From a virus, in IMG/VR virus record IMGVR_UViG_3300035698_009921, positions 1-36,812 of that record: a stretch of 36,812 bases of DNA. One strand, given 5' to 3'. Of this stretch, positions 8,985-30,162 are shown one piece after another (within the stretch, counting starts at the first letter, position 1; each line of letters begins with the position of its first letter). A model generated the notes under the pieces. It was not told where the DNA came from, searched no databases, and was given only the letters and a program-made list of their open reading frames with translations. The translations under genes and the position numbers were made by a program.

Positions 8985-9245
8985 ATGACATTCGCACAAA
9001 CAAGAGTTCGAAGAACAGTAATTGGAAACATGGTCATGGAAATATGGACCGCAACATTTACAGGAGTAGAATCAGGCAATCTCGCAACAGGACTTAATTC
9101 TATTGAACAAGTATTCGTTCAAGGAGACACTGTAAGGGCATCAATGACAGTAGATCATACTACAACCGCAGGAACGGTGGCAATAGCCTCAGTCACATCA
9201 GATGACGTCGCAACTGTAACTGTCATGGGAAGAAGTAAAGCATAA
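8985..9245 (+). CDS. Small beta-rich probable capsid decoration protein, copy 1
   Basis: An 86-aa Thr/Val/Gly-rich beta protein (RRTVIGNMVMEIWT, then DHTTTAGTVAI and VTVMGRSKA) preceded by GATAAGATAGGAGGA. Small beta-sandwich proteins coded just after the major capsid protein are typically head decoration proteins. The neighbouring gene is about 77% identical (66 of 86 residues by hand alignment). There is no signal peptide. A small tail-tube or head-completion role is an alternative. Confidence 0.6.
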   Translation: MTFAQTRVRRTVIGNMVMEIWTATFTGVESGNLATGLNSIEQVFVQGDTVRASMTVDHTTTAGTVAIASVTSDDVATVTVMGRSKA

Positions 9246-9274: not shown

Positions 9275-9535
9275 ATGGCATTCACACAATCAAGAAAAAG
9301 AAGAACCGTAATCGGAAACATGGTTATGGAAATCTGGACAGGAACATTCACCAGTGTAACAGAAGGTAATCTTGCAACAGGAATAGGTTCAATTGAAGGA
9401 GTAATTGTTCAAGGAGATACCGTAAGAGACGCAACAACTGTAGACCACACCACTACTGCAGGAACAGTAGCAATCACAGGAGTTACAACTGGAGACGTTG
9501 CAACAATCACCGTAATGGGGAGAAGCAAAGCATAA
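9275..9535 (+). CDS. Small beta-rich probable capsid decoration protein, copy 2
   Basis: This 86-aa paralogue of the gene at 8985 has the same length without gaps and the same ends (RRTVIGNMVMEIWT near the start, VMGRSKA at the end). Differences cluster at residues 2-8, 23-30, 37-54 and 68-73, probably the exposed loops. The leader (GATAAGATAGGAGGAAA) was duplicated with the gene. Two isoforms may decorate different capsid sites or vary surface loops; this is inference. Confidence 0.6.
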   Translation: MAFTQSRKRRTVIGNMVMEIWTGTFTSVTEGNLATGIGSIEGVIVQGDTVRDATTVDHTTTAGTVAITGVTTGDVATITVMGRSKA

Positions 9536-9555
9536 ATACAATGGAGGCACTAAAG

Positions 9556-11391
9556 ATGAATAAAACAATTTTAATCGGAATGTTAACAATTCTTCTAATA
9601 GTGGCTACTATCCAAGCATTGCCTCAAGGTGCAATAACAATCAATTCTCCTTCCGACAATACTTGGACTAATTTGGTAAACTATACATCTGGCTTCAATT
9701 TTTCAGTAAATGATAATGAAGGCAATTATAGTGTAAATTGTAGTTTATACATTGGAACGCTCTATAATATACCACTGATCATAGCAACAGCAAATTCAAG
9801 TTATGCATCAAAAGTGATATATCAAGAGACGACAACTGTGTTTTATATGGATCATTACTTTCCAACTAATGACACAACATATTATTGGACAATAAAATGT
9901 ATTAACGACACACATCTACCATCAGTAGCCTCGGATTTGAGAACATTAAAACAAGGTGTAACAACACCAACACTATCAATAAATGAAATTAGTTTCACAA
10001 ACGGAACTTATGTAACATTACCTATGAGGTTCGAAGTAACTGCAGTAGATAATGGAACACAAGGAGACGCACTGACAGTAACGATCAGAAATGCAACAGG
10101 ATATAGTCATGAATCTGCAAGTGTGTATAATGGAACAGCAACAAATATCACATGGAGTCCTTCAGACGGAACCTATGTAGTAACTTTAAATGTTTCAAAC
10201 CCATCAGGGAACACAGCAATCAATGACACAATATATACGGTATACGTGGACACAACAACTCCAGCAGTAACATGGGAGAATCCAGCATCAGGAGCAGTAA
10301 CAGCCAACGATTATCAAGTATTGAATTTCTCATTAACAGAACAGAATGTAGATACAATTCTATTAAACTGGAGTGGAACAACCGAAACAATTGGAATCGG
10401 AAATTGCACAGATTCAGCACCAAATTATAACTGTTCATTTAATAAGACCGGAGCCGCATCAGGAAGAAATGTCGGGTATGAATTAATAATAAACGACAGT
10501 GCAGGAAACGAATTGGAAACAACATCCAGAAGTATCAGCATAAACAATACATCACCAACAATAACAACATACAACTGGTCAGTATCAGGTAGCACAGCAT
10601 CGTGGAGATTCTTAATAACAGGAACAACTCCAGCAACATGCTTCGCTAAATTATACTACGCAAATGGAACCTATGTGAGTACATCAACAGGAACCCTTGG
10701 CACAATCGGGTCAACAACCAATTGTTCAGGAAATTTTACAGAACCAGACGTAGACAAAGATGGTGGAGTCCGAGCTGAATATAACGTGACAGATGACGCA
10801 GGCAACAGCGCACTTGCAAATCATACAGGAATTGTAAATGAACTTTATGCAGGATGGAACATCATAACATATGCAGATTCAACAAGAAACTCAAGCACAA
10901 TCTGTGGAGAAATAGGATCATGCACACAAGTCGCTTGGTATAACAACTCAGGGCAAGCATACGTGACTTATTCAACCAGCACACCAGGAACAAACAATGC
11001 AACATCAATCTCCCCAGGAGACGCAATGCTTGTGTATATCTCAGCAGACAGCGCATACATTGCAAACAACAATCTTCCAGGAGCAACAGATTCAGCAAGA
11101 CACATAACATTATATGACATGGGATGGAACACAATGGGCCTGATTTTAAATGCAAACATATCAGCAGTGTATAATGCACCATCAAATGATACAGGGCTAT
11201 TAAACATCAGCTATGCATCATTATATAATGCAGACACCGAAACATTCAGCACATGTAAACGATCATCAGGCTTATGTGCAGGAACATCGACAGCAGCAAC
11301 GAATATAGACTTGCCATTGGGATACGCAGTATGGGTACTGACAGACCAAAACGGTAATTATACTATAAACAGAACAGAGGTGTCAGGATGA
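9556..11391 (+). CDS. Secreted Ig-like, sequon-rich surface protein
   Basis: I start at ATG 9556, eight bases after GGAGG, because it places a classical signal peptide at the N-terminus (hydrophobic residues about 4-19, cleavage after ATIQA); the ATG at 9541 would bury it. The 611-aa product has several Ig/FN3-like beta domains, e.g. around residues 25-125, 135-235 (ending TIYTVYVDTTTP) and 235-335, then a C-terminal region with two GWN-type motifs (GWNIITY near 434, GWNTMGL near 523). N-x-S/T sequons are very frequent, fitting archaeal N-glycosylation. There is no C-terminal anchor, but its stop overlaps the start of a membrane protein (ATGA), suggesting the two act together. Exported, possibly an adhesin or cell-surface mask. 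Catalytic motifs were not seen. Confidence 0.65.
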   Translation: MNKTILIGMLTILLIVATIQALPQGAITINSPSDNTWTNLVNYTSGFNFSVNDNEGNYSVNCSLYIGTLYNIPLIIATANSSYASKVIYQETTTVFYMDHYFPTNDTTYYWTIKCINDTHLPSVASDLRTLKQGVTTPTLSINEISFTNGTYVTLPMRFEVTAVDNGTQGDALTVTIRNATGYSHESASVYNGTATNITWSPSDGTYVVTLNVSNPSGNTAINDTIYTVYVDTTTPAVTWENPASGAVTANDYQVLNFSLTEQNVDTILLNWSGTTETIGIGNCTDSAPNYNCSFNKTGAASGRNVGYELIINDSAGNELETTSRSISINNTSPTITTYNWSVSGSTASWRFLITGTTPATCFAKLYYANGTYVSTSTGTLGTIGSTTNCSGNFTEPDVDKDGGVRAEYNVTDDAGNSALANHTGIVNELYAGWNIITYADSTRNSSTICGEIGSCTQVAWYNNSGQAYVTYSTSTPGTNNATSISPGDAMLVYISADSAYIANNNLPGATDSARHITLYDMGWNTMGLILNANISAVYNAPSNDTGLLNISYASLYNADTETFSTCKRSSGLCAGTSTAATNIDLPLGYAVWVLTDQNGNYTINRTEVSG

Positions 11392-12272
11392 AATCAACAA
11401 ACTTTTTTATTTATTTTTTGATTGTACTATTTTCAGTAGGAACAGTATCGGCAATAATCTTCCCATTACCAATCAATGGAAGAATTGACTCAACAAATGT
11501 TCAATACCAGAAAGTAGAAATAACTAATCAAAGGACCGGAGTCACAGTTCAGACCGAGACAAACACAAATGGAGAATACTTATACGACTGGGCAAACTCA
11601 GATGACAAAGGTGGAACAATCTCAAGATATGCCAAAGGTGATCAGTTTTTAATTAAAATATTAGGATGTTCAGCTTATGCAAGCAATTGCATCAAGACGC
11701 TAACCTATACAGGCCAGCCAGAAATATTCCAAGTTTGGGACTTAAGCAGTATAACTCTATCACAACAATGCCCAGCACCTACAACATGCCCGGCTTGCTC
11801 ATGTGGAGGAGGCAGTAGCGTCATATATACATGCACAGAAGAACAAGCAAGGAAAATAGTAAACTGCTCAGAAGTTGAGTACCTACCCGAAGAATGTCCA
11901 ACAACCGAATGCCCAGTAGTAGATTGCTCAACAGTAATCGACCACACACCATACGAGAGTTGCGATTCATGTTGCACAGCCGAAACATGCGAAGAAACAA
12001 TATGCGAAACATGCGATGAACAGAATAATGATTTATTAGGAATCATAGCAGGAATAGCAGCATTTATTCTTACACTTGGTGGAGGAATGCAAATATACAG
12101 AAACAGGAAAGGTGGAATAACTCTACTACACAGACATAGGGGAATCAGAGGATATCACAATCCAGATACTCAGCATAGAAACCCTAAGTATAAACATGCA
12201 AAATTGACTACATCACCAGCTCAATACGCAAAGGACATAAAAAAGATAGAAGAAACAGGAGGACTGATTTAA
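11388..12272 (+). CDS. Cysteine-rich type I membrane protein with carboxypeptidase-regulatory-like domain
   Basis: A 294-aa protein with a signal peptide (residues 1-22, ending VGTVSA), then a beta-sandwich like the carboxypeptidase-regulatory domain (about 25-118; GRIDSTNVQYQKVEITNQ, TNTNGEYLYDW). Next is a stalk of about 90 residues with 15 cysteines, mostly in C-x2/3-C pairs, one transmembrane helix (about 216-238) and a basic cytoplasmic tail of about 55 residues (HRHRGIRGYHNP). The architecture suits an outward-facing disulfide-bonded stalk anchored in the host membrane. It shares a four-base overlap with the secreted Ig-like gene, so it may be its anchor or partner. Function is not known. 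Confidence 0.65.
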   Translation: MKSTNFFIYFLIVLFSVGTVSAIIFPLPINGRIDSTNVQYQKVEITNQRTGVTVQTETNTNGEYLYDWANSDDKGGTISRYAKGDQFLIKILGCSAYASNCIKTLTYTGQPEIFQVWDLSSITLSQQCPAPTTCPACSCGGGSSVIYTCTEEQARKIVNCSEVEYLPEECPTTECPVVDCSTVIDHTPYESCDSCCTAETCEETICETCDEQNNDLLGIIAGIAAFILTLGGGMQIYRNRKGGITLLHRHRGIRGYHNPDTQHRNPKYKHAKLTTSPAQYAKDIKKIEETGGLI

Positions 12273-13424: not shown

Positions 13425-14780
13425 ATGAAAAAAGAAGACTATAAGAACGTAAAAATCTCAATCTGTGTCCCAGCTTATGGAACCGTAACAGCAACATGGC
13501 TGATAAGTTACATGAAATTCATGCAAGATGCAATCAACAAATTCTCAGTAACCTCATTTATACACGAACAACAGCCAGTAAGTGTAAGTAGAAACATATT
13601 AGTAGACATGGCACTCACAAAGGATCCTGATTATATTTTATTTGTAGATGCAGACAATATCATTCCACCAGGAACAATCGAGAAACTGATTGACACAATG
13701 GAAAAGACTGAAGCTGAATTCGTAACAGCAACATACTTCTCAAAACAACCACCATACTATCCAGTGATCAGGCAATACAAATCAGGAGGATTCTGGAAAG
13801 TAGACAACCCAGCACTCGGCCAACAATTCGAAATAGGTGGAGCAGGGTTCGGATGTTGTTTAATTAAGAAACGAGTATTCGCAAAATTACAAAAACCATA
13901 CTTTAAATTTAGTCACGAAACATGGGGAAGAAAGGATATCACACTAAGTGAAGATTTATACTTCTGCAGACAAATGATAGCAACCAAACAAAAGATGGTA
14001 TGTGATACAAGTGTCGTGTGTCCACACGTAGGTGGAGCAATTGACGTAATGGAATACATGAACTTCGCACCAATCAGGCAAAGCACAATGATGGATCGTG
14101 AAGAATTATTAAAAGATTTAAGGGGATTCACTGGAAGGACCGAAAACGAAGTTGACTTGGATGTCATGGTAGGACCAGGATTAATGAAAGAAGCTTGGGA
14201 GAAAGCCAAACCATCAACATTCGAAGAACAAAAGAAATTCTATAAAGAGACAGATCGATACTTATATGACCTAAGTCTCTGGCATTTTTCAGACAGAAGA
14301 AAATGGGACATCGAACTCGCAACCAAAATGAACCGAGAGCTCAAAGATAAGCCTGATTTAAAGGTCTTAGATTTAGGATGTGGAATAGGTCAGAATTCAA
14401 TAATGTTGGCAAGATTAGGGTGCAAAATGACTCTCGCAGACCTTGATAGCGTAACGCTTGGATTCGCAGAACATAGATTCAAAGAACATGAAATCCCATA
14501 CAAAATATGGAAGACAGACCTTGAAGATATGCCACCAGAAGAAAAGTACGATTACATCCTCGCCCTTGATCTATTCGAACACTTACCAATTGAAGAAATG
14601 AAGAAATACGCTGACAAAATAGAGAAACTTAAACACAAAGGAACCAAAGTTATAATGACAAACAGCTTCGGACAAGACTCAGGTGGAGTAGTATATTCAC
14701 ACCCAATGCACTACGACGAAGAAGAAGGACATAAAGATATCATAAACAAAATCAAACACGAAGGACCAGATGGTAAGTAA
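13425..14780 (+). CDS. Glycosyltransferase (GT-A) fused to a SAM methyltransferase
   Basis: Residues 9-220 resemble a GT2-type GT-A glycosyltransferase: ISICVPAYGT at the nucleotide-binding strand, the DxD motif VDADN (Asp75, Asp77), and LSEDLYFC with Glu176/Asp177 in the acceptor/catalytic-base position. Residues about 290-430 form a class I SAM methyltransferase: VLDLGCGIGQNS (motif I, Gly318), a following acidic strand end (TLADLD) and YDYILALDLFEHL (motif IV). It probably transfers a sugar and methylates it, or modifies a polysaccharide or glycoprotein in the cytoplasm. The gene overlaps the giant surface-enzyme gene by 11 bases, so glycosylation of that protein, other sequon/Thr-rich surface proteins, or host glycans is a reasonable inference. 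Complete, with no missing key motif. Confidence 0.75.
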   Translation: MKKEDYKNVKISICVPAYGTVTATWLISYMKFMQDAINKFSVTSFIHEQQPVSVSRNILVDMALTKDPDYILFVDADNIIPPGTIEKLIDTMEKTEAEFVTATYFSKQPPYYPVIRQYKSGGFWKVDNPALGQQFEIGGAGFGCCLIKKRVFAKLQKPYFKFSHETWGRKDITLSEDLYFCRQMIATKQKMVCDTSVVCPHVGGAIDVMEYMNFAPIRQSTMMDREELLKDLRGFTGRTENEVDLDVMVGPGLMKEAWEKAKPSTFEEQKKFYKETDRYLYDLSLWHFSDRRKWDIELATKMNRELKDKPDLKVLDLGCGIGQNSIMLARLGCKMTLADLDSVTLGFAEHRFKEHEIPYKIWKTDLEDMPPEEKYDYILALDLFEHLPIEEMKKYADKIEKLKHKGTKVIMTNSFGQDSGGVVYSHPMHYDEEEGHKDIINKIKHEGPDGK

Positions 14781-17700
14781 TACAACAAAAGTCGGAAGTT
14801 TAGTCATTGTAGTATTCATAACTTTTTTTTCTTTTCAATACTTTGAACAAGTCCGAATAGATTTCAGAGATACAAATACAGTATTTAAAGTTTGGGAAGA
14901 TACTAAATTCGTTAAGTCAGGCACAGAATATGTTAGATTGTTTGACGGTTCTAAATTAATGAGAGCTAAACAAAGGAATAATGAATTTAATATTAGAGAT
15001 GGTAAAACTATCGTTAATAAATATGCTGAATTTAAAGATGGTATTGAAGTTGAACAAAGATATGTATTTAATAATATAATCGATAATATTGAACAAATAC
15101 CATTATCAGAACAGATTTGTATACATAATGGTAAGGGTAAAATATTGGAATGGTTGATTGATGATATATATTATGATGGAGATACTGTTGATATAATAAG
15201 TCCTTTTTCTTTTGGAAAAAATATGAAAATTACATTTCAAGATGGATACTATCGAGCAAAAGTTTATCAACAAATTTCTAAAGATAAGATTATTGTTAGG
15301 TATCGAATAGATTCAGATGTTAAATGTTTTAATGTAAAAATGTTTGATCCAGAAGATAATATTAATGTAATTAGAGTTCAAAATGCAACAGCATATTCTA
15401 ATACTGTAGGGGTTTCTGCCAAAGCAACTTTTTCACAAGCAATCGTTGAAAATAATTTATTAGTTGCTATTTCATTTTGTAGAAATGGAGATGATGCAGA
15501 TTTACCTATATCAGCAACAATATCTGGAGAAAATTGGACTAATGCATTTATAAATTATTATAAAACATTAGAAAGTTTTACTGATAGAAGAGGTCTAGCA
15601 GTTTTTTATAAAATAGCTGGACCTGATGAAAATGAAACAGTATCTATTAATTGGAGTTTTTCTGACAAACGAGATTGTTTAATGCTACAAGAATTTAATA
15701 CAACTATAGCTGATTATAATTTTACGTTTGATACTAGCGTTTACAATCATTCAATAACTTCATCAGTTTCATCAATTTCAACAAATACAACAGGTATATC
15801 AACAAATAATGATTCTTTTATTTTAACTGTAGTTGGAACAAGAGATGAATCTGGTAATGCAACATGGACTAATGATATTAGTGATAATTTATACTATTTT
15901 GATTCTGTTGGTAATAGAGCTATAAATTCTGGTTTTGGTGTAGATAATGTATCAAGTGCAAAAGAAAGTGTCGCTACATATGGTACTGCAAGATTATCAA
16001 ATTCGGGAATTTTAGTTTTTAGTTTAATTGATGAAGTTACTACAACTACAACTACAACTACAACTACTACAACAACGACTACTATTGTTAATGCATTAAA
16101 CCTTACAACCGATTTAAAAGAATGTTGGGACATGGATAGTTTAGATTGTAGTTGGACAGGAACAAGAAACATGAGTCCAACTGGAACTCCTCAACCATAT
16201 TTAGATACTGTAACTAATAAAGTCGGAACTGGTAGTTATTATTTTGATGGACAAAATTGTTTTACTTTTGAAAATGATAATGCTTTAGAAGGATTTAAAG
16301 AAGTCACTGTTGCTTATTGGACATGGAAAAATTATACAGATGCCGAAGAACGTTATCCTTATGCAAATCAAGATAATTCAGCTAATAATCGTTCGCTTTG
16401 GACTGGATTTTATCAAAATAAATATTTATTCGGAATTAATAATGATTGGGTGCAATCATCTGCTGATGCAGCTACAAAAGAATGGATACATATTGTTTTT
16501 ACATATAATGGAACACATAGGAAAATTTATCAAAATAGTATTTTAAATTTAACTGATGTAGACACTTTGGGAGATTTAGGGACTACATTATCTAATTATT
16601 CAATAGGATGTAGACATAAGGATAATACTTTAGAAAAATTCTTTATTGGTGGTGTAGATGTAGTAGCAACATGGAATAGATCATTAAGTGCTGAAGAAGT
16701 TACATCAATATATAATAGTTCATTCGGGCAAACATGTAATGAGATGACTAACACAACTACAACGACTACGACTACGACTACAACTACTACGACTACAACG
16801 ACTACTACTTTAGGACCGACAATAGAAACTGTAGCTTGTTTTGGCGATTCTTTTACAGATGGATATTCATGTATAGATAGGACTAATAACTATTGTACAT
16901 TATTGAACATGACAGCAAATTATACTACATATAATTATGGAGTTAGCGGTGAAACAACTGAAGATTTACAAGCTAGAACAAGTGATGTTTTAGATAAAGG
17001 TTATAATATAACTCTTATTCAAGTTGGAGCAAATGATATTAAATTAGATGCTTATATTCCTTTAGCACAATTTTATATTAATCTATCAAATCTTACACAA
17101 GAATTAGTTGATAATGGTAGTGATATTTATATTGCAACTTTAACACCTTGTAATAAATCAGATGAAAGACCATGTTCAGATGAAAATATTGTAAACTTAA
17201 CTCATAGAAATAATATTATAAGACGAATATCACATGAACAACAAGTAGGTATAGTTGATTGGATGGAAGATGTATTTCATAATGCATATAATGATTCAAA
17301 GATTTGTGCTGCAGATACTCATAGAATGCATCCCAATGAAAACGCACACATCGAAATGAACGCATCAATGTTTGACACTTTACAATTAGGAATAATACCA
17401 TTTGATTGCGATATAAATCCTGATGATTGTTGGGATTATTCTGCTACTCAAACAAATTTAAATCAAACTACTACAATTTGGTATCCTTATGCTGAATGGA
17501 ATTTTACTAATCCAGATTGGACTGGTAACGCTTTTGATTTAGAAGCTAATGCTACATTTGATAACGGTTACACTATACACATGTTTTATGATAGCGGAAC
17601 ATCTTGGCTTATGAGATTTATGTGTAATGACACAGGCATTTTTAATTTTACAACATCTTCCAGTGATAATGATTTAAATTTGATAAGTGGTAATGTGACA

Positions 17701-19329
17701 TGTTCTGGAAATGAGAATGGAATGGGAAGATTAACATATGTTACTGTAGGTGATGCTAGTAAGTTTTATGTAGGCGGGTGGGAAAAAGCAATAATTCCAA
17801 TATGGGATATGGTTCCTCCAGATGTTAGAGTTCCAGCATCTATTGAAACAAGTTTTATAGATACATGGTTTACTAATAATATTTACAATGGATTTTTAGG
17901 AGGACATACAATGAGTCCTGGAAATAAATGGTATAACTGGTCTTGTGATGGAACATGGGACGATGCTGGTTGTAATACAAGTAATCCAGATCCAGATGCA
18001 TTCGCATATTATGAATATATTATCGAAAAATCATATAATAATGATTCATTTTTTCATATTTGGATGTGGTGGGATATGGATGCTGGACGAAAATTGGGCG
18101 ATATTTATCATGAAACAAAAGAGAACAATGCTACAAACCGAGAAAGACTTAGAAAATATATGGCTGATAGATGGGGAGCAATACCTAATTTAATAATTGG
18201 AGAAGGCTTTGATAATAATGAAAATGATAATACTACTATACTAAATAGTTGGTATGATACTATACAAAATAGAACACCTTATACTATTATGCTTGGTGCA
18301 AGGAATGAAAAAAATACTTATGTAGAAATATGCACAAATTGTAATTATATTTCTTGGGAAACTCAGGGAGAATTTACACCGCTAACTTATTTAAGATTCA
18401 ATACATCACAGAGTTATTCAGAACCAACACGACCTGTATTTGAAGAAGATAGATACAGAATAGAATCTGGTACTGCCGATAAACCGATACATAATGCTAC
18501 TTATATGAGTCAGATTATGTGGTGGTTATCAATGAATGAAGGTGTGGGAGGAATCTTTTCATATTTAATTGATCAACTTAGTGGCGGTTCTTATACTAAT
18601 GAGAATGGATATCCTGCAGAATATCAAACAGTTATATCAGCATGGTCAGATTTTTGGAATAATAGAACCAATGATACAACAGAAAGATTCAGTGTTGAAA
18701 TGGCTTATTGTAATGAACTTTCAAATAATGCAACTACTTATTGTATGAATGATAGCATCAGAAGCATTTTTTATAATGAACTGAACACTACATTTACAAA
18801 TATAACTTTAACAGAAATGGGTAACATTACAGCATGGGATGTTATGAATAATAGTCAAATAGAATTAGGGTTTCAATCTGCAGGAGTATATGAATATACA
18901 GCTCCGTATGAAACTCAATGGGTATTCGATATAGTTTATGGAATATCACCAGTAGGTCTTAGTATTAATTTAAGTTTTGGACCAGCAGGAACGTCTATTT
19001 TTAGATACGAAACATGTGGGCCAGATTTTGAGAATGCATCAGCATTGCCAGAAGGACAAGACAATACTTATGGGATTGATTATGTTTGTAATAATGGAAC
19101 TGCAGGAGCAGGGGATATAGGCTTAAAATTAGCAGGAGCATCAAACACAAACTGGACAATATGGGCAAGCAATATCAGTGTAGATTCTAATCTCATAAAC
19201 TTAACAACAAGCTATCAGACAATATATTCACAACTCGCACAAGGATCATGCACATACTTCTGGTTTAAGGCAAACTGCAGTTATGTGAACCAAGGACCCG
19301 GAACTTATGAACAATATCAAATAAGCTAA
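14770..19329 (+). CDS. Giant signal-anchored protein with LamG-like, SGNH esterase and glycosidase-like domains
   Basis: This 1519-aa protein has an N-terminal hydrophobic anchor (about 7-24), then a module (about 28-198) shared with the protein at 27232 (IRF: FGKNMKITFQ, RYRIDSDVKCFNVKMFDP). A beta domain (about 205-420) leads to a Thr run (424-438), a LamG/concanavalin-like domain (about 445-655; GSYYFDGQNCF, GVDVVATWNRSLSAEEV) and a second Thr run (662-680). An SGNH hydrolase follows: GDSF with nucleophile Ser694, GVSGET, GAND with Asn755, and DTHRMHPN with probable His854. Residues about 1015-1330 look like a TIM-barrel glycosidase of DUF4038/apiosidase-like type (WGAIPNLIIGEGFD with Glu1145, ISWETQGEF with Glu1197). 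It probably deacylates and cuts surface polysaccharide. T-ending codons differ from its neighbours until about 19000. The glycosidase family is tentative. Confidence 0.7.
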   Translation: MVSNTTKVGSLVIVVFITFFSFQYFEQVRIDFRDTNTVFKVWEDTKFVKSGTEYVRLFDGSKLMRAKQRNNEFNIRDGKTIVNKYAEFKDGIEVEQRYVFNNIIDNIEQIPLSEQICIHNGKGKILEWLIDDIYYDGDTVDIISPFSFGKNMKITFQDGYYRAKVYQQISKDKIIVRYRIDSDVKCFNVKMFDPEDNINVIRVQNATAYSNTVGVSAKATFSQAIVENNLLVAISFCRNGDDADLPISATISGENWTNAFINYYKTLESFTDRRGLAVFYKIAGPDENETVSINWSFSDKRDCLMLQEFNTTIADYNFTFDTSVYNHSITSSVSSISTNTTGISTNNDSFILTVVGTRDESGNATWTNDISDNLYYFDSVGNRAINSGFGVDNVSSAKESVATYGTARLSNSGILVFSLIDEVTTTTTTTTTTTTTTTIVNALNLTTDLKECWDMDSLDCSWTGTRNMSPTGTPQPYLDTVTNKVGTGSYYFDGQNCFTFENDNALEGFKEVTVAYWTWKNYTDAEERYPYANQDNSANNRSLWTGFYQNKYLFGINNDWVQSSADAATKEWIHIVFTYNGTHRKIYQNSILNLTDVDTLGDLGTTLSNYSIGCRHKDNTLEKFFIGGVDVVATWNRSLSAEEVTSIYNSSFGQTCNEMTNTTTTTTTTTTTTTTTTTTTLGPTIETVACFGDSFTDGYSCIDRTNNYCTLLNMTANYTTYNYGVSGETTEDLQARTSDVLDKGYNITLIQVGANDIKLDAYIPLAQFYINLSNLTQELVDNGSDIYIATLTPCNKSDERPCSDENIVNLTHRNNIIRRISHEQQVGIVDWMEDVFHNAYNDSKICAADTHRMHPNENAHIEMNASMFDTLQLGIIPFDCDINPDDCWDYSATQTNLNQTTTIWYPYAEWNFTNPDWTGNAFDLEANATFDNGYTIHMFYDSGTSWLMRFMCNDTGIFNFTTSSSDNDLNLISGNVTCSGNENGMGRLTYVTVGDASKFYVGGWEKAIIPIWDMVPPDVRVPASIETSFIDTWFTNNIYNGFLGGHTMSPGNKWYNWSCDGTWDDAGCNTSNPDPDAFAYYEYIIEKSYNNDSFFHIWMWWDMDAGRKLGDIYHETKENNATNRERLRKYMADRWGAIPNLIIGEGFDNNENDNTTILNSWYDTIQNRTPYTIMLGARNEKNTYVEICTNCNYISWETQGEFTPLTYLRFNTSQSYSEPTRPVFEEDRYRIESGTADKPIHNATYMSQIMWWLSMNEGVGGIFSYLIDQLSGGSYTNENGYPAEYQTVISAWSDFWNNRTNDTTERFSVEMAYCNELSNNATTYCMNDSIRSIFYNELNTTFTNITLTEMGNITAWDVMNNSQIELGFQSAGVYEYTAPYETQWVFDIVYGISPVGLSINLSFGPAGTSIFRYETCGPDFENASALPEGQDNTYGIDYVCNNGTAGAGDIGLKLAGASNTNWTIWASNISVDSNLINLTTSYQTIYSQLAQGSCTYFWFKANCSYVNQGPGTYEQYQIS
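16039..16083 (+). repeat. Poly-Thr codon array 1
   Basis: Fifteen consecutive ACN codons, mainly alternating ACT/ACA, encode a Thr linker before the LamG-like domain. The in-frame triplet array can change length without breaking the gene. Confidence 0.85.
16753..16809 (+). repeat. Poly-Thr codon array 2
   Basis: Nineteen consecutive ACN codons (ACA/ACT/ACG mixtures) encode the linker between the LamG-like and SGNH domains. Probably an extended, possibly O-glycosylated spacer. Confidence 0.85.
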
Positions 19330-20072: not shown

Positions 20073-20972
20073 ATGGGAATAACAATAGTTGCGGACCAAC
20101 CCCCTGCAGCATCACCATACGACCAATGGAAGGTGTACAGGGCAACAACAGAAACAGGAACTTATAGCTTAATTACAACTCAAGCAATAACGGATTTAAC
20201 ATATTACGACCAGAACGGTGCCAGTACAAGTTGGTACAAAATAAGCTATTATGACGAGAGCGAATCAGCAGAATCAGGATTGTCAAGTGCAATCAAGGGA
20301 CTATCAACAACATACACAACAGTTCGAAAAATCGAATCATTTCTACAAAAATATACAACATCGGACTCTACTAACCCAGACATACAAGAAATGACAGATA
20401 TTATTAATAGAAAAGAAGACGAAATAGATTATGCAACAGGACATGCTTGGAGAGTAAGGTATTCAGGAACCCAATCAGGCCAAGACACAACAGCTAAATA
20501 TGAAACTTATGACTTTTATGGAGTACATGAAAAACATACAGGAACCCCTATTTATTTGAAACATAGAAAAATCTACGAATTAGATGCAGATGAAGGGGAT
20601 GCCCTCGGATTTTGGAACGGTGAAGAGTGGGAAAATTGGATAACATTAAGAACTGAAGGAAGAGCAAACGACTTCTGGTTCGACTACACCAGGGGAATCA
20701 TGTATGTAAAAGGCTACATCTGGAGCCAGAAACCACAAGCATTCAGAATCAAATATAGATATGGTGAAACATTTTTAAACCGAGACATTGAAGACATAGC
20801 AACAAAGCTGGTTGCAATCGATATGCTCACAGGAATGGACCCAAGAAGTATGATTGTGCAAGAAGGAAGTCCAGTAATGTCACACGCACAACGAGTAGAT
20901 ATCTGGACAAAAGAAATCGACACAAAACTAAACAGATACAAGGAATGGCAAGTGCCATCAATAGACTTTTAA
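20073..20972 (+). CDS. Head-tail connector (adaptor)-like protein with N-terminal FN3-like domain
   Basis: A 299-aa protein with ATGGAGG upstream of the ATG. Residues 8-78 look like a fibronectin-III domain (YDQWKVYRATTETGTY, LTYYDQNGASTSWYKISYYD, SGLSSAIKG). The rest has a connector-like pattern: a helical start (DIQEMTDIINRKEDEIDYATGHAWR), a central beta region and a C-terminal helical pair (DIEDIATKLVAIDMLTG, VDIWTKEIDTKLNRYKEW). Adaptor proteins of this type join the portal to the tail. Position after the head genes and before the tail terminator and tube supports the call. The exact connector family was not verified. Confidence 0.55.
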   Translation: MGITIVADQPPAASPYDQWKVYRATTETGTYSLITTQAITDLTYYDQNGASTSWYKISYYDESESAESGLSSAIKGLSTTYTTVRKIESFLQKYTTSDSTNPDIQEMTDIINRKEDEIDYATGHAWRVRYSGTQSGQDTTAKYETYDFYGVHEKHTGTPIYLKHRKIYELDADEGDALGFWNGEEWENWITLRTEGRANDFWFDYTRGIMYVKGYIWSQKPQAFRIKYRYGETFLNRDIEDIATKLVAIDMLTGMDPRSMIVQEGSPVMSHAQRVDIWTKEIDTKLNRYKEWQVPSIDF

Positions 20973-21073: not shown

Positions 21074-22672
21074 ATGACACAAAATAATGTATTGCCAGAA
21101 GGCGCAACAAGAAACCAAGGAGCAAACGCTCAACAAGTAAACATAACCATTGCAAAAATGGTGGCTGGGATTGTCAAGACAACTCTCGGACCAAAGGGAA
21201 TGGACAAACTTCTCGTTGACAGTTTAGGAGACGTAACTGTAACAAATGACGGAGTAACAATTCTAAGAGAAATGACCATTGAGAATCCAGTCGCAAAGAT
21301 GATGGTAGAAATCGCTAAAACCCAAGAATTAGAGGTAGGCGATGGAACCACAACTGCAGTAGTATTGGCAGGAGAACTTCTGAGTAACGCTGAAGAATTA
21401 ATCAAGAAAAAGATTCATCCAACAGTCATAGCAAAAGGATATCAGATAGCATGCGACAAAGGAATAGATATCCTTAAAGAAATGGCAATCGATATCAAGA
21501 AGAAACCAGAATATGAAATAATTTTAAACCAGATAGCAATGACAGCAATGACAGGCAAGGGAGCAGAATCTGACCGAGAACACCTTGCGAAAGTAGTAGT
21601 TGATGCAATTCTTAAAGTAGCTGAAGGAGATAAGGTAGACCTTGACTCAATCATGGTAGAAAAGAAGACCGGAAACTCAGTAAAAAATACACAAGTCATA
21701 GAAGGAATCGTACTTGACAAGACAAAGATACATCCAAATATGCCAGACAGCGTAAAGGCCGCAAAGATTGCGATCATAGATTCAGGAATTGAAATAAAGA
21801 ATCTTGAAATGGATGCTAAGATTAACATTAATAGTCCTCAGCAAATGCAAGAATTCATGTTAAATGAAGCAAACGAGATAAAAGGAATGATTGACCAGGT
21901 CACAGCATCAGGAGCAAACGTCCTTATTTGTGGGAAAAACGTGGATGAATCAGCACAACACTTCCTAACAAAGCAAGGAATCTTCGCAATGCAAAGAATA
22001 TCTCGAGAAGATTTAAATCGGATAAGCAAAGCAACAGGAGCGAAGATCGTAACAAGTATAACCGACTTGACAGCTGAAGACTGTGGAAAAGCAGGAGAAG
22101 TCTCACAAGAATTTATAGGAGATTCAGATATGATTTTTATAAAAGAATGTGAAAACCCAAAAAGCATAACCATCATGGTAAGAGGCGCAACTGAACAAGT
22201 CACCTCAGAAGTGAAACGAGCATTGGAAGATGCAATGGGAGATATAGCGACTATGGTAAGACAACCAAATGCAGTTGGAGGAGCAGGCGCACCAGAGATG
22301 AAACTCAGTGAAGCACTTCAAGAATTCTCAAAACAACATAAAGGAAGAGAACAACTTGCGATTCAGGCATTCGCCAAAGCAATGGAAATCATCCCAGAGA
22401 CTCTGGCAGAGAATGCAGGACTGGACCCAATCGACATCATGGCTGAATTACAGTCAGATATGCTAACAGGCACAACTAAGTGGCCAGGCATTAATGTCTT
22501 CACAGGCAGAGTAATGGACAGCTGGAAAGAGGGAGTAATTGAACCATTAAGGGTCAAGACTCAAGCAATCAGTTCAGCCGCAGAAGTTGCAACAATGGTA
22601 TTGCGAATAGATGACGTAATCAGTATAATGCACAACCCAGACGAACTCAAAGCACAGAGAGCACAGATGTAA
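21074..22672 (+). CDS. Thermosome subunit (group II chaperonin)
   Basis: At 532 aa it is close to the usual archaeal thermosome length. Clear motifs are [12 protein letters not shown] (about 37-48), [22 protein letters not shown] with the catalytic Asp in GDGTT (about 94), and [12 protein letters not shown] (normally GGGAPE, so one Gly is Ala). The ALEDAMGD segment follows the family around the intermediate-domain Asp. The apical region, AGLDPIDIM and LRIDDVISI near the end are intact. The C-terminal Gly/Met tail of many thermosomes is missing (ends RAQM). It would form an ATP-driven double ring that folds proteins, here perhaps capsid, tail or giant surface proteins. Flanked by the connector and tail terminator genes, it is part of the virus region rather than a distant host locus. 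Confidence 0.92.
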
Positions 22673-27231: not shown

Positions 27232-30162
27232 ATGGAAAAGACAAAGCAAATCATCGGATACATAACAATACTTTTAATAATCATATCAGGAGTAACTTAT
27301 ATTTATTTTAAAGACAAAGTAGCAATCAGAATCGACGAAGACAAAACTGTGTTTTATACAAACATTTCAGGAAGATACTTGATATCTGCTCAGCAAAACG
27401 ATAGAATATTTTCAGGAACAAGTATCGTTGACAGAGTCACCAAATCAATCCAACTGACAAACCGAACAGAAGGAAACAAATACATTAAAGAAAGAAACAC
27501 TGAATACGAAAACGGAGAAAGGATCGTGCATTCTTGGACTTTTAATCCTTATTCTGCAGCAATAGAAGACTTTCCATTATTAGAGAAAATATGTGTGTAC
27601 AACGCAACAGGCAAATTCTACAGATATTCACTGGATAAATTAGTAGATGCAGGACCCAAAAGAAAACTTATTGAAGAAACATCAGCAGAGTTCGGAAGAA
27701 ATATTAAGATAACATTCGAACCAAACTACAGATGGGCTTGGATAGGATACCCATACGGAAGCGACAGCTTCGCAGTACAATACGACATAGACTCAGATGA
27801 AGAATGCTTCGATATAAGACTATTCGATCCAACGCCAATGAGCCTTTATATTTCTGGATATGAAAGAAATATCAACGTAGAAATAGAATCAGCAATCAAT
27901 ATAACAACCAACGCAACACCGAATAACATAACATGTATAGACATTTTGAATCATCCAGAAGGTGGCATTAATTTGTCATGCAAAGAAAACTCCACATATT
28001 ATGATTTTACATTAACATACTTTAATCAATCAGGATTTAATGACAGCACAACATCTAAGAACCTTTCAGTAAATGCAGATTATAATAATGGCACTGCATG
28101 TGCACAAGAATGGGCAAATATTTCCACATCATGTGGGGGACTGGATTCGGGAACGTATGAGGTAACAGGATCGTGGGATGCTTCCTATCCTGCAGTACAA
28201 GCATACGATGGAATCTACACCATACTTGGACTTGCATATTCAAATACAGACGGAAGTGTATACGTAAATTATACAAAACCATACTTCGCTACAAACGAAA
28301 GCCTGTGGAGGATTGCTCATTATTCTAATAATGGAGGAGGAGACGTAATCCATGATAATAATTATGCAATTCCTGACGGTTGCTGGAATAACGGAAAAGA
28401 TAATTTAGTATTTAGAATGAGATCATACAATTCAAGAGGAATAGTAACATTCTCATGTTATGATTCTACAGATAGCGAAATAATAGTATTTACAGACACT
28501 GATTTGGTAGTGGCTATTGCTGAAGAGGCAATGTCTTGGAAGTTCACAAATACATCAAATGATACTTTTTATATAAAAGGACACGAGTTCGATGATGTTT
28601 ATAATTTATCTTTTTACTTAGAAGGAAGACAACTTCAAGGAAACTATCCAACAGGCGTAAATATTTATGTGAATGAAGTTGAAACTAACTCAATCGCACT
28701 TATTACAGAAGTAGATACAGGACAAACAACAACATTCGCAGATGGAGAAAGCGAATCCTCAACAACATTCAATACGTTTAATATAACTATTAACGATGCA
28801 GACTATGGAGCATTTTCAGGATCAACAATAACATCAAATATGACTTTTAATATTACAGGAAAAGAAGTAAATAAAACATGTTACCAGGAAAGTGCAACCA
28901 TAGAAGATCAGGCAGGAACAGACACAGAAAACTGTGGGCTTTTTTATAATGGTTCTTATGTTTTCACAGGAACATGGTTGAGACAATCGGCAGCAAATGA
29001 TGGAAGCTTTTCAGGATGGACATCCGGGTCAGCTGGAGGAACTGTATACATGTACATAAATTATACAAAGCCAACACTTGCAAAATCAGCAGAATGGACA
29101 GCCAGATATGTATCTGGAACATCTTCACCGACATTGACAAGTACACTCCCCTCAACATGTTTCGCAAATGACCCGATCCAATTAAGGATAAGTCTCACAC
29201 AATACACACCACAAGTATATTCATGTTACACAGGAAGTGCATGGAGCACAGTCTGGTCAGTAAGTGGATATACCTTTTTTGAAGAAGCAATAGAATGGAC
29301 AGTAAACACAGGATACCCTGCAAATCTTTGGATAAATGTCGGAGACATAGTCGCAAACAAAAGCTGGAATTATACTGCAGAATTAAGTACAACTCAAACA
29401 GTGACAGTTAATTCAACAGTAATAGAAGACTATATGGACTCTTGCGAATTCTCGGGAGGAGTGTGCAATGTCCCGATTTGGGTATTTTCAGAACAAGATG
29501 GTGGTGTTTTAATAGACGATTTAAAGGTAAATTATTCAAACCCAATAAATCCAGTAACAATATCAGGAAGTTATATAGAAGATTATCTACGGACCCAAAC
29601 AGGATCCGTTAATATCCCGATTAGATTCGAAGCAAGTAGCAATGGAGATATTGAAGTCTCAAATGTTTCATACAAATATAAAGGTGGGAATCAAACAATT
29701 AAAATCAGAGCTCACACTCCCAGCTACGATACAAATGTCACATATAACGTAACTTATTTTTATAGCAAATACAACAAATCTCCCCCATACTCATGGACAA
29801 ATGTTGTGTTTTTTCAACCAAAAACAAACAACAGTAAAAATATAACAGCATACTACCAAACAGCATCAAGAGCAATTTTAAATTTCACATCATACACCAG
29901 GGGACATGAATTCAATATATCAGCATACATAAATGAAACTGACTCTTGTTTAAATTTAACATTAAGCACGAACAGCACCAAATCTGCAGGAAATGTAATA
30001 AGCAACACAAGCGAACAAAATATGTTTAATCAAAATTCAACAGAAAACAAATATTTATGGGCTTGGGCAGATTTATATGATTGCGATTCAAGCGTAAAAA
30101 AATACCTTCAGCCTAAATTTATCTTTGAAAGTTGTTGTACAAATTGTGAGGTGTGTCCATGA
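27232..30162 (+). CDS. Large signal-anchored surface protein in the tail module
   Basis: A 976-aa protein with an N-terminal anchor helix (about 7-26). Residues about 30-208 are homologous to the same region of the 1519-aa protein at 14770 (shared RID-x-TVF, FGRNIKITFE, IDSDEECFDIRLFDP). The rest is beta-rich and sequon-dense. Two related domains occur at about 287-436 and 549-689; both have VNYTKP/INYTKP, a central Cys-Asn segment, an SCY strand and EEA-x2-W. The C-terminus ends Cys-rich (ESCCTNCEVC). No catalytic motif was found. It lies between distal-tail and hub genes and overlaps the hub start (ATGA), so expression is tied to tail genes even though its N-terminus looks exported. Confidence 0.65.
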   Translation: MEKTKQIIGYITILLIIISGVTYIYFKDKVAIRIDEDKTVFYTNISGRYLISAQQNDRIFSGTSIVDRVTKSIQLTNRTEGNKYIKERNTEYENGERIVHSWTFNPYSAAIEDFPLLEKICVYNATGKFYRYSLDKLVDAGPKRKLIEETSAEFGRNIKITFEPNYRWAWIGYPYGSDSFAVQYDIDSDEECFDIRLFDPTPMSLYISGYERNINVEIESAINITTNATPNNITCIDILNHPEGGINLSCKENSTYYDFTLTYFNQSGFNDSTTSKNLSVNADYNNGTACAQEWANISTSCGGLDSGTYEVTGSWDASYPAVQAYDGIYTILGLAYSNTDGSVYVNYTKPYFATNESLWRIAHYSNNGGGDVIHDNNYAIPDGCWNNGKDNLVFRMRSYNSRGIVTFSCYDSTDSEIIVFTDTDLVVAIAEEAMSWKFTNTSNDTFYIKGHEFDDVYNLSFYLEGRQLQGNYPTGVNIYVNEVETNSIALITEVDTGQTTTFADGESESSTTFNTFNITINDADYGAFSGSTITSNMTFNITGKEVNKTCYQESATIEDQAGTDTENCGLFYNGSYVFTGTWLRQSAANDGSFSGWTSGSAGGTVYMYINYTKPTLAKSAEWTARYVSGTSSPTLTSTLPSTCFANDPIQLRISLTQYTPQVYSCYTGSAWSTVWSVSGYTFFEEAIEWTVNTGYPANLWINVGDIVANKSWNYTAELSTTQTVTVNSTVIEDYMDSCEFSGGVCNVPIWVFSEQDGGVLIDDLKVNYSNPINPVTISGSYIEDYLRTQTGSVNIPIRFEASSNGDIEVSNVSYKYKGGNQTIKIRAHTPSYDTNVTYNVTYFYSKYNKSPPYSWTNVVFFQPKTNNSKNITAYYQTASRAILNFTSYTRGHEFNISAYINETDSCLNLTLSTNSTKSAGNVISNTSEQNMFNQNSTENKYLWAWADLYDCDSSVKKYLQPKFIFESCCTNCEVCP

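Follow-up and report, generated by a model that had tools for sequence, protein, structure and literature searches.

A candidate membrane-anchored glycan esterase/glycosidase encoded between the head and tail genes of an archaeal tailed virus

On which surface, and at which stage of infection, would a tailed virus use a large protein that joins a predicted membrane anchor to lectin-like and glycan-active domains? The question is raised by a gene at 14770..19329 of IMG/VR record IMGVR_UViG_3300035698_009921, positions 1–36,812 of which (36,812 nt, 35 genes) make up the stretch analysed here, hereafter the window.

Domain architecture of the 14770..19329 gene

The original prediction of one viral gene held: the locus is a single open frame of 1,519 aa with an ATG start at 14770. 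An AAGGA motif lies shortly upstream, and the first 11 bp overlap the preceding GT2/methyltransferase gene. The virus carries an HK97-type capsid gene set, its MCP matches those of haloarchaeal tailed viruses at ~31%, and its thermosome is ~50% identical to those of many archaea. Assignment to an archaeal tailed virus is thus supported by gene content and, with the domain profiles below, so is the earlier description of a virus-encoded, archaeal, multidomain carbohydrate-active protein. Because the thermosome is about equally close to that of many archaea, it is uninformative for host assignment, and we distrust assignment from bins, since one related contig was binned as archaeal and another as bacterial. 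The protein had no match in PHROGs or, by tblastn, in 50,697 phage records; short-pattern scans of limited sensitivity, using the barrel, the whole protein and family alignments, found no relatives in 2.9 million viral contigs, and a search of 87 archaeal and 147 bacterial genomes, run without a positive control, was likewise negative. The gene comprises:

14770..19329, +: whole gene, predicted exported modular glycan-active protein, 1,519 aa
14788..14850, +: signal-anchor hydrophobic segment by hydropathy, about residues 7–27 (within 2–27)
14854..15384, +: N-terminal module, residues ~29–205, terminating in IDSDxxCFxxxxFDP, sequon-free
15385..16038, +: residues 206–423, a presumed domain with no family match
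16039..16083, +: poly-Thr linker 1, residues 424–438
16261..16701, +: LamG/concanavalin A-like lectin domain, residues 498–644, PF13385
16753..16809, +: poly-Thr linker 2, residues 662–680
16837..17349, +: SGNH/GDSL hydrolase, residues 690–860, with S694, GVSGE 724–728, N755 and H854
17491..17664, +: DUF5060 domain, residues 908–965, PF16586
17725..18669, +: putative glycoside-hydrolase barrel, residues ~986–1300, profile detection limited to the first half, up to ~1141
18958..19323, +: C-terminal module, residues 1397–1518 (~120 aa), common to two related viruses

Both a lectin-like domain and an SGNH hydrolase had been proposed, and Pfam profiles recovered both. Laminin_G_3 (PF13385) matched residues 498–644 (E = 1.7e-11, 45 bits against a cut-off of 27.6, model positions 7–150 of 151), and Lipase_GDSL_2 (PF13472) matched residues 690–860 (E = 9e-18, 65.8 bits against 32.9, model positions 1–176 of 178), the latter region also matching PF00657 (E = 1.7e-8) and solved SGNH esterases (E = 1e-5). 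The catalytic motifs are retained at the residue numbers first given, with Ser694 in GDSF, Asn755 in GAND (753–756) and His854 in HP, together with the block II Gly in GVSGE (724–728); esterase activity is predicted. In SGNH block V the third residue ahead of the catalytic His is usually Asp; here it is His851, and the nearest Asp, D849, lies two residues earlier; a two-residue loop insertion could restore the block-V Asp. The expected poly-Thr linkers are also present, as two runs coded by a mixture of ACA, ACT and ACG. Residues 206–423 gave no Pfam match over cut-off.

The C-terminal enzyme had been described as a DUF4038-like barrel, a description that survives only in part. The DUF4038/apiosidase-like families PF13204 and PF12904 did not match the barrel even at E = 10, and assignment of residues 1301–1395 to a PF12904-like sandwich was dropped for want of profile support. 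DUF5060 (PF16586) is clear at residues 908–965 (E = 9e-7, 29.5 bits against a cut-off of 27.2, model positions 8–70 of 70), a region that also weakly matches PDB 4n0r. Alignment to DUF5060 glycoside hydrolases with hhalign gave Prob 97 across residues 918–1141, and the barrel-only score was 37.2, against 15.9 ± 2.2 for shuffles; the same comparison found nothing in residues 1142–1400, the second barrel half scoring at background. AlphaFold2 prediction of residues 898–1395 as a single sequence gave an unusable model (pLDDT 33). Like the DUF5060 glycoside hydrolases of PDB 4n0r, Rhizobium, Monoglobus and Halocatena, the protein has DUF5060 followed by a putative barrel, and it retains their strand-4 lead-in, RYxxYVxARxxAYxN. 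Those enzymes differ in being cellular, ~500 aa long and free of lectin or SGNH domains in the same chain, and past the first half of the barrel no relationship to them is detectable. In Monoglobus, an SGNH gene directly follows the DUF5060 glycosidase gene, a precedent for the enzyme pair. The barrel fold and glycosidase activity are thus far putative. The catalytic pair originally named, Glu1145 and Glu1197, was not borne out. E1145 (GEGFDNNEN) lies just past the stretch that aligns with the strand-4 lead-in of the family, and E1151 is as good a candidate; E1197 (SWETQ), a poor choice, precedes RPVFEED (1221–1227), which is the better strand-7-like motif, making E1225 and E1226 better candidates for the second acid. 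By motif order, the candidate acids are E1145 or E1151 with E1225 or E1226.

Anchor, sequons and the variable slot

Hydropathy analysis agreed with the proposed membrane anchor, identifying one N-terminal segment (residues ~7–27) as the sole TM-like segment of the protein, with modest hydrophobicity (KD 1.6–1.7). The protein contains 61 N-glycosylation sequons, whereas 28.0 are expected from composition (z 7.3, 0 of 1,000 shuffles), while the reversed motif occurs 24 times and NP[ST] not at all; residues 206–423 alone give a z of 2.5. Enrichment is confined to 3 of the 35 window genes (z 6.4–7.3), all of which start with a hydrophobic segment, and across the virus clade the two properties are associated (Fisher p = 2.7e-6). 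No enrichment was found in HCTV-1 or vir519, or in nine HFTV1 proteins, including the deacetylase-like turret head. These patterns suggest that the protein is exported and N-glycosylated, on the assumption that the host glycosylates N-X-S/T sites. The other two sequon-rich genes are:

9541..11391, +: predicted exported gene, 616 aa, Ig-like, adjoining the MCP gene and conserved there in relatives
27232..30162, +: second anchored gene, 976 aa, sharing the N-terminal module of the target

A fold search on the 9541 protein returned generic Ig-like domains only. The N-terminal module is 30% identical to residues 15–216 of the 27232 gene product (E = 9e-24; hhalign Prob 98.8), which bears a homologous anchor. 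At the other end, the C-terminal module occurs in two related viruses, fused in one to an unrelated anchored protein and free in the other. It matches its L016/L067 counterpart at 47–50% and the stand-alone protein L068:9225–9782 at 45%; the L068 copy carries a signal peptide of its own and lies in the same slot. Neither end module was found in 87 archaeal genomes. The target gene sits among virion genes, between those for head and tail, and its immediate surroundings are:

13425..14780, +: left slot border, GT2 glycosyltransferase and SAM methyltransferase fusion, overlapping the target start
20073..20972, +: right slot border, conserved gene, phrog_17057

The relatives L016 and L014 have a different gene in the slot, and L004 and L007 have none; the locus is best read as a variable cargo slot. 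Signal-bearing repeat proteins of relatives were considered as tail fibres, an identity that we do not claim, there being no phage match.

Site and purpose of the protein

From these observations we infer a cell-surface site and purpose: with a probability of about one-half, the protein would be a modular glycan esterase/glycosidase that is N-glycosylated, anchored in the membrane and exposed on the infected cell. The infected archaeon would export and N-glycosylate it, the signal anchor (residues 7–27) holding it in the membrane with ~1,490 residues outside. The LamG domain on its Thr-rich stalks may then bind surface polysaccharide, with ester-bound acyl groups taken off by the SGNH domain and glycosidic bonds cleaved by the DUF5060-type glycosidase. 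The anchor and C-terminal modules are shared parts; the enzymes that they flank would be the cargo of this virus. The coat of the infected cell would be stripped or altered, most likely in cis, and perhaps that of touching cells in trans, leaving progeny freely released or competing viruses unable to bind, in the manner of a neuraminidase. The modest hydrophobic segment, the unrecognised second barrel half and the replacement of the SGNH block-V Asp by His all count against this explanation.

A virion role, in which the protein forms a turret, fibre or tail-tip depolymerase that binds and trims the coat of the next host at entry, as in HFTV1 or SGNH phage tail fibres, is a real but unlikely alternative. 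It fits the location, since head and tail genes surround this one and the glycan deacetylase-like virion protein of HFTV1 (its turret head, with galactose-binding-like and polysaccharide-deacetylase domains) is encoded in a comparable stretch; the slot occupant also varies among close relatives, as receptor-binding genes do. SGNH domains are common in phage receptor-binding proteins (PMC13123978). However, the signal anchor and strong sequon enrichment are both missing from the characterised virion enzyme tested, and a relative secretes the C-terminal module separately. The original view, that the protein may act on the host's own or a neighbouring cell surface and not as an ordinary tail spike, gains independent support from the sequons, the paralogous anchor module and the free secreted C-terminal copy.

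The same exported enzyme pair, directed at surface glycans, might instead be made late and, at egress, take apart S-layer glycans or the polysaccharide of the host envelope, and a glycosyl hydrolase has been suggested to destabilise the S-layer in HRTV-DL1 (PMC10384203). We regard a release or lysis enzyme as improbable, however, as no lysis gene was identified adjoining the target, the anchored, stalked architecture is not endolysin-like and two relatives lack the gene entirely. More doubtful still is an exported passenger of cellular origin that has lost catalytic activity and acts at the surface purely as a lectin or adhesin. An adhesin could well have a LamG domain and stalks, and the absence of the block-V Asp from its usual place and the unrecognisable second barrel half also favour this reading, but Ser694, the block II Gly, Asn755 and His854 are retained and a candidate Glu is present where motif order calls for each of the two acids.

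Beyond display on the infected cell, we raise speculatively, and at rather long odds, that viruses of this clade make some of their machinery for adsorption or release beyond the cytoplasm: two or three large glycoproteins of the morphogenetic module would be exported, N-glycosylated and held at the surface, modifying glycans and perhaps joining the departing particle. Such a glycoprotein system, using the secretory pathway, would have no counterpart in any characterised tailed virus that we know of.

Relation to known systems

The known surface-glycan enzymes of tailed viruses belong to the virion and serve entry. The turret head of HFTV1, gp31, resembles the target in coming from an archaeal tailed virus, in joining a carbohydrate-binding-like and a glycan-modifying domain in one chain and in being encoded between head connectors and tail tube, and it has been shown in the virion (PMC12494034). 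It differs in its zinc polysaccharide deacetylase-like fold, its length (413 aa) and its lack of an N-terminal hydrophobic segment (KD 0.47) and of sequon enrichment (z −0.7). The SGNH receptor-binding proteins of phages (G7C gp63.1, Klebsiella prophages) are likewise viral and expected to de-esterify surface polysaccharide; unlike the target, they are virion tail fibres or spikes of bacterial phages, and the parts of the source consulted report no DUF5060 glycosidase or LamG domain in the same chain (PMC13123978). Glycosylation, predicted for the target, is found in structural proteins of other archaeal viruses, namely SSV1, SSV19 VP4, which has a putative glycoside hydrolase core, and HRPV-1-type spikes (summarized in PMC10384203). 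Those viruses are mostly membrane-containing, whereas the present one is tailed, with HK97-type capsid genes. The sequon signature may offer a cheap way of picking exported proteins from archaeal virus genomes. If the protein is exported, anchored and, as is probable, glycosylated, an archaeal tailed virus would be remodelling the coat of the very cell it has infected, as enveloped animal viruses are well known to do; to our knowledge, this strategy has not been described for archaeal tailed viruses.

Genome context of a putative surface protein

The frame at 14770–19329 on the plus strand encodes a protein of 1,519 aa (hereafter the target), in a linear 36.8-kb record from a tailed archaeal virus.

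Genes assigned in the record, by start coordinate, with basis of assignment
3603, S78-type prohead protease (family search)
6946, SU10-like capsid protein (weak match)
23480, tail tube (family search)
25074, tape-measure-like protein (no family match; position and composition)
35459, Sak annealing protein (family search)

The capsid protein is 31–32% identical to those of the haloarchaeal tailed viruses HCTV-1, HCTV-5 and HVTV-1 and 25% identical to that of a Methanofastidiosa virus. An archaeal thermosome gene (NF041082, E=2.5e-205) sits within the morphogenetic module at 21074–22672, with syntenic copies in the related viral loci L004 (57%) and L067 (78%). Neither terminase nor portal was recognised within the 36.8-kb record, which is therefore probably incomplete. 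An 86-aa gene occurs in tandem duplicate (8985–9245 and 9275–9535), as it does in L067.

Domains of the target

Matches to LamG (residues 498–644, E=1.7e-11), SGNH hydrolase (690–860, E=9e-18) and DUF5060 (908–965, E=9e-7) each exceeded their own Pfam cut-offs; among the virus records searched, several being fragments, all three were found in the window only. Solved SGNH esterases matched residues 688–840, and the original prediction had correctly placed the catalytic Ser694, Asn755 and His854. The third triad member is uncertain, because His851 occupies the usual Asp site three residues before the histidine and D849 lies two residues farther off. The poly-Thr runs are written with mixed Thr codons and thus are no simple one-codon repeat.

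A DUF4038-like barrel with Glu1145 and Glu1197 as candidate acids had also been proposed. DUF4038, a better-known relative with a catalytic Asp/Glu pair (PMC4032388), had no match in the target. Our reference set was five DUF5060 glycosidases from plasmid records, one from the haloarchaeon Halocatena, which group with the putative glycoside hydrolase PDB 4n0r (Shinella member, E=1e-104). Against their alignment, hhalign gave Prob 97 across residues 918–1141; without DUF5060, the barrel scored 37.2 versus 15.9 ± 2.2 in 40 shuffles, a score resting on RxxxYxxxRxGAxPNL, the lead-in ahead of strand 4. Residues 1142–1400 scored at background against this alignment, and AlphaFold without an alignment gave no usable model of the barrel region. 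Motif order suggests E1145 or E1151 as the strand-4 acid and E1225 or E1226, within RPVFEED, as the strand-7 acid; Glu1145 stays a candidate, and Glu1197 falls in the place of the family's preceding strand. The C-terminal enzyme is probably a glycosidase.

A variable slot and an export signature

Comparison of related loci and the closest virus revealed a constant slot with a variable occupant, and showed that the target's end parts are modules reused in other, putatively exported proteins. Residues 11–200 resemble the start of the gene at 27232 (30% identity, E=9e-24). In the most closely related virus, with 90% identity in the capsid protein, the slot is occupied by a 790-aa anchored protein sharing only its last ~122 aa with the target (47–50%). 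L068, which belongs to the G003 virus, encodes the C-terminal module as a free protein of 185 aa that carries a signal peptide of its own (MKRVLSCILVLIALISNVSAS), directly ahead of the conserved slot-border gene. Of all single findings, this separately secreted copy argues most strongly that the target's C-terminus lies outside the cytoplasm. L014 carries a 1,557-aa sequon-rich protein between the capsid protein and its homologue of the border gene 20073, and neither L004 nor L007 has a slot gene. At the other border, 13425–14780 encodes a GT2 glycosyltransferase–SAM methyltransferase fusion, whose L004 version has a second methyltransferase-like domain.

N-X-S/T sequons were counted in 35 window genes, with expectations from shuffles of each protein. 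Enrichment was found in the target (61 versus 28.0 expected, z 7.3), gene 9541 (37 versus 15.9, z 6.4) and gene 27232 (42 versus 17.7, z 6.9), the remaining 32 being at chance. Composition fails to explain the target's excess, because the reverse motif S/T-X-N occurs only 24 times and N-P-S/T is absent. A hydrophobic segment opens all three sequon-rich genes; gene 11388 has such a segment and no enrichment. The two features were associated when the window was pooled with 17 related loci, of which some share a virus record: 11 genes had both, 14 had the segment but no enrichment, 5 had enrichment but no segment and 104 had neither (Fisher p=2.7e-6, with non-independence among genes of related viruses). 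The segment threshold was KD 1.9, which the target, at KD 1.72, does not reach. Neither feature was found in proteins of at least 200 aa from the HCTV-1 structural half and vir519. Nine HFTV1 proteins, one being the turret head protein that carries a deacetylase-like domain, likewise lacked sequon enrichment; among them, hydropathy was borderline in the tape measure only.

Gene 9541–11391, immediately following the capsid genes, encodes a conserved Ig-like protein predicted to be exported and glycosylated; most related viruses for which sufficient sequence is available have it, and AF2 models it as tandem Ig-like domains (pLDDT 60). The conserved protein at 11388–12272, which adjoins it in relatives, combines a signal peptide with a further TM close to its C-terminus. 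In L068, 564–9782 holds six consecutive sequon-rich frames, some without a start signal. They include DUF2341 and segments rich in repeats, and may be a single long exported protein split by frameshifts.

Possible site of action and known parallels

The best reading, given the domain content, the export signature and a GT2/methyltransferase gene that overlaps the target's start, is a cell-surface glycan-remodelling enzyme. Such an enzyme could act in cis, clearing polysaccharide ahead of release or masking receptors against other viruses, or in trans, on touching cells. It is possible that the target is instead a virion protein: the archaeal parallel that has been characterised, HFTV1 gp31, forms part of the virion as a turret protein, and its gene has a similar position. 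Archaeal viruses are also known to have glycosylated proteins in their virions, and even the tailed HRTV-DL1 gave glycostained bands (PMC10384203). Against a virion role, gp31 lacks both the export signal and the sequon enrichment that the target has.

Every single domain is already known, as are glycan-modifying proteins of archaeal tailed viruses, and SGNH de-esterifying proteins have been described in phages (PMC13123978). An exported, sequon-rich viral protein joining anchor, lectin, esterase and DUF5060 glycosidase was absent from all collections searched, and a limited literature search found no description of one. In Monoglobus, an SGNH gene directly follows a DUF5060 glycosidase gene, the two being separate neighbours there, whereas the virus carries both in a single chain.
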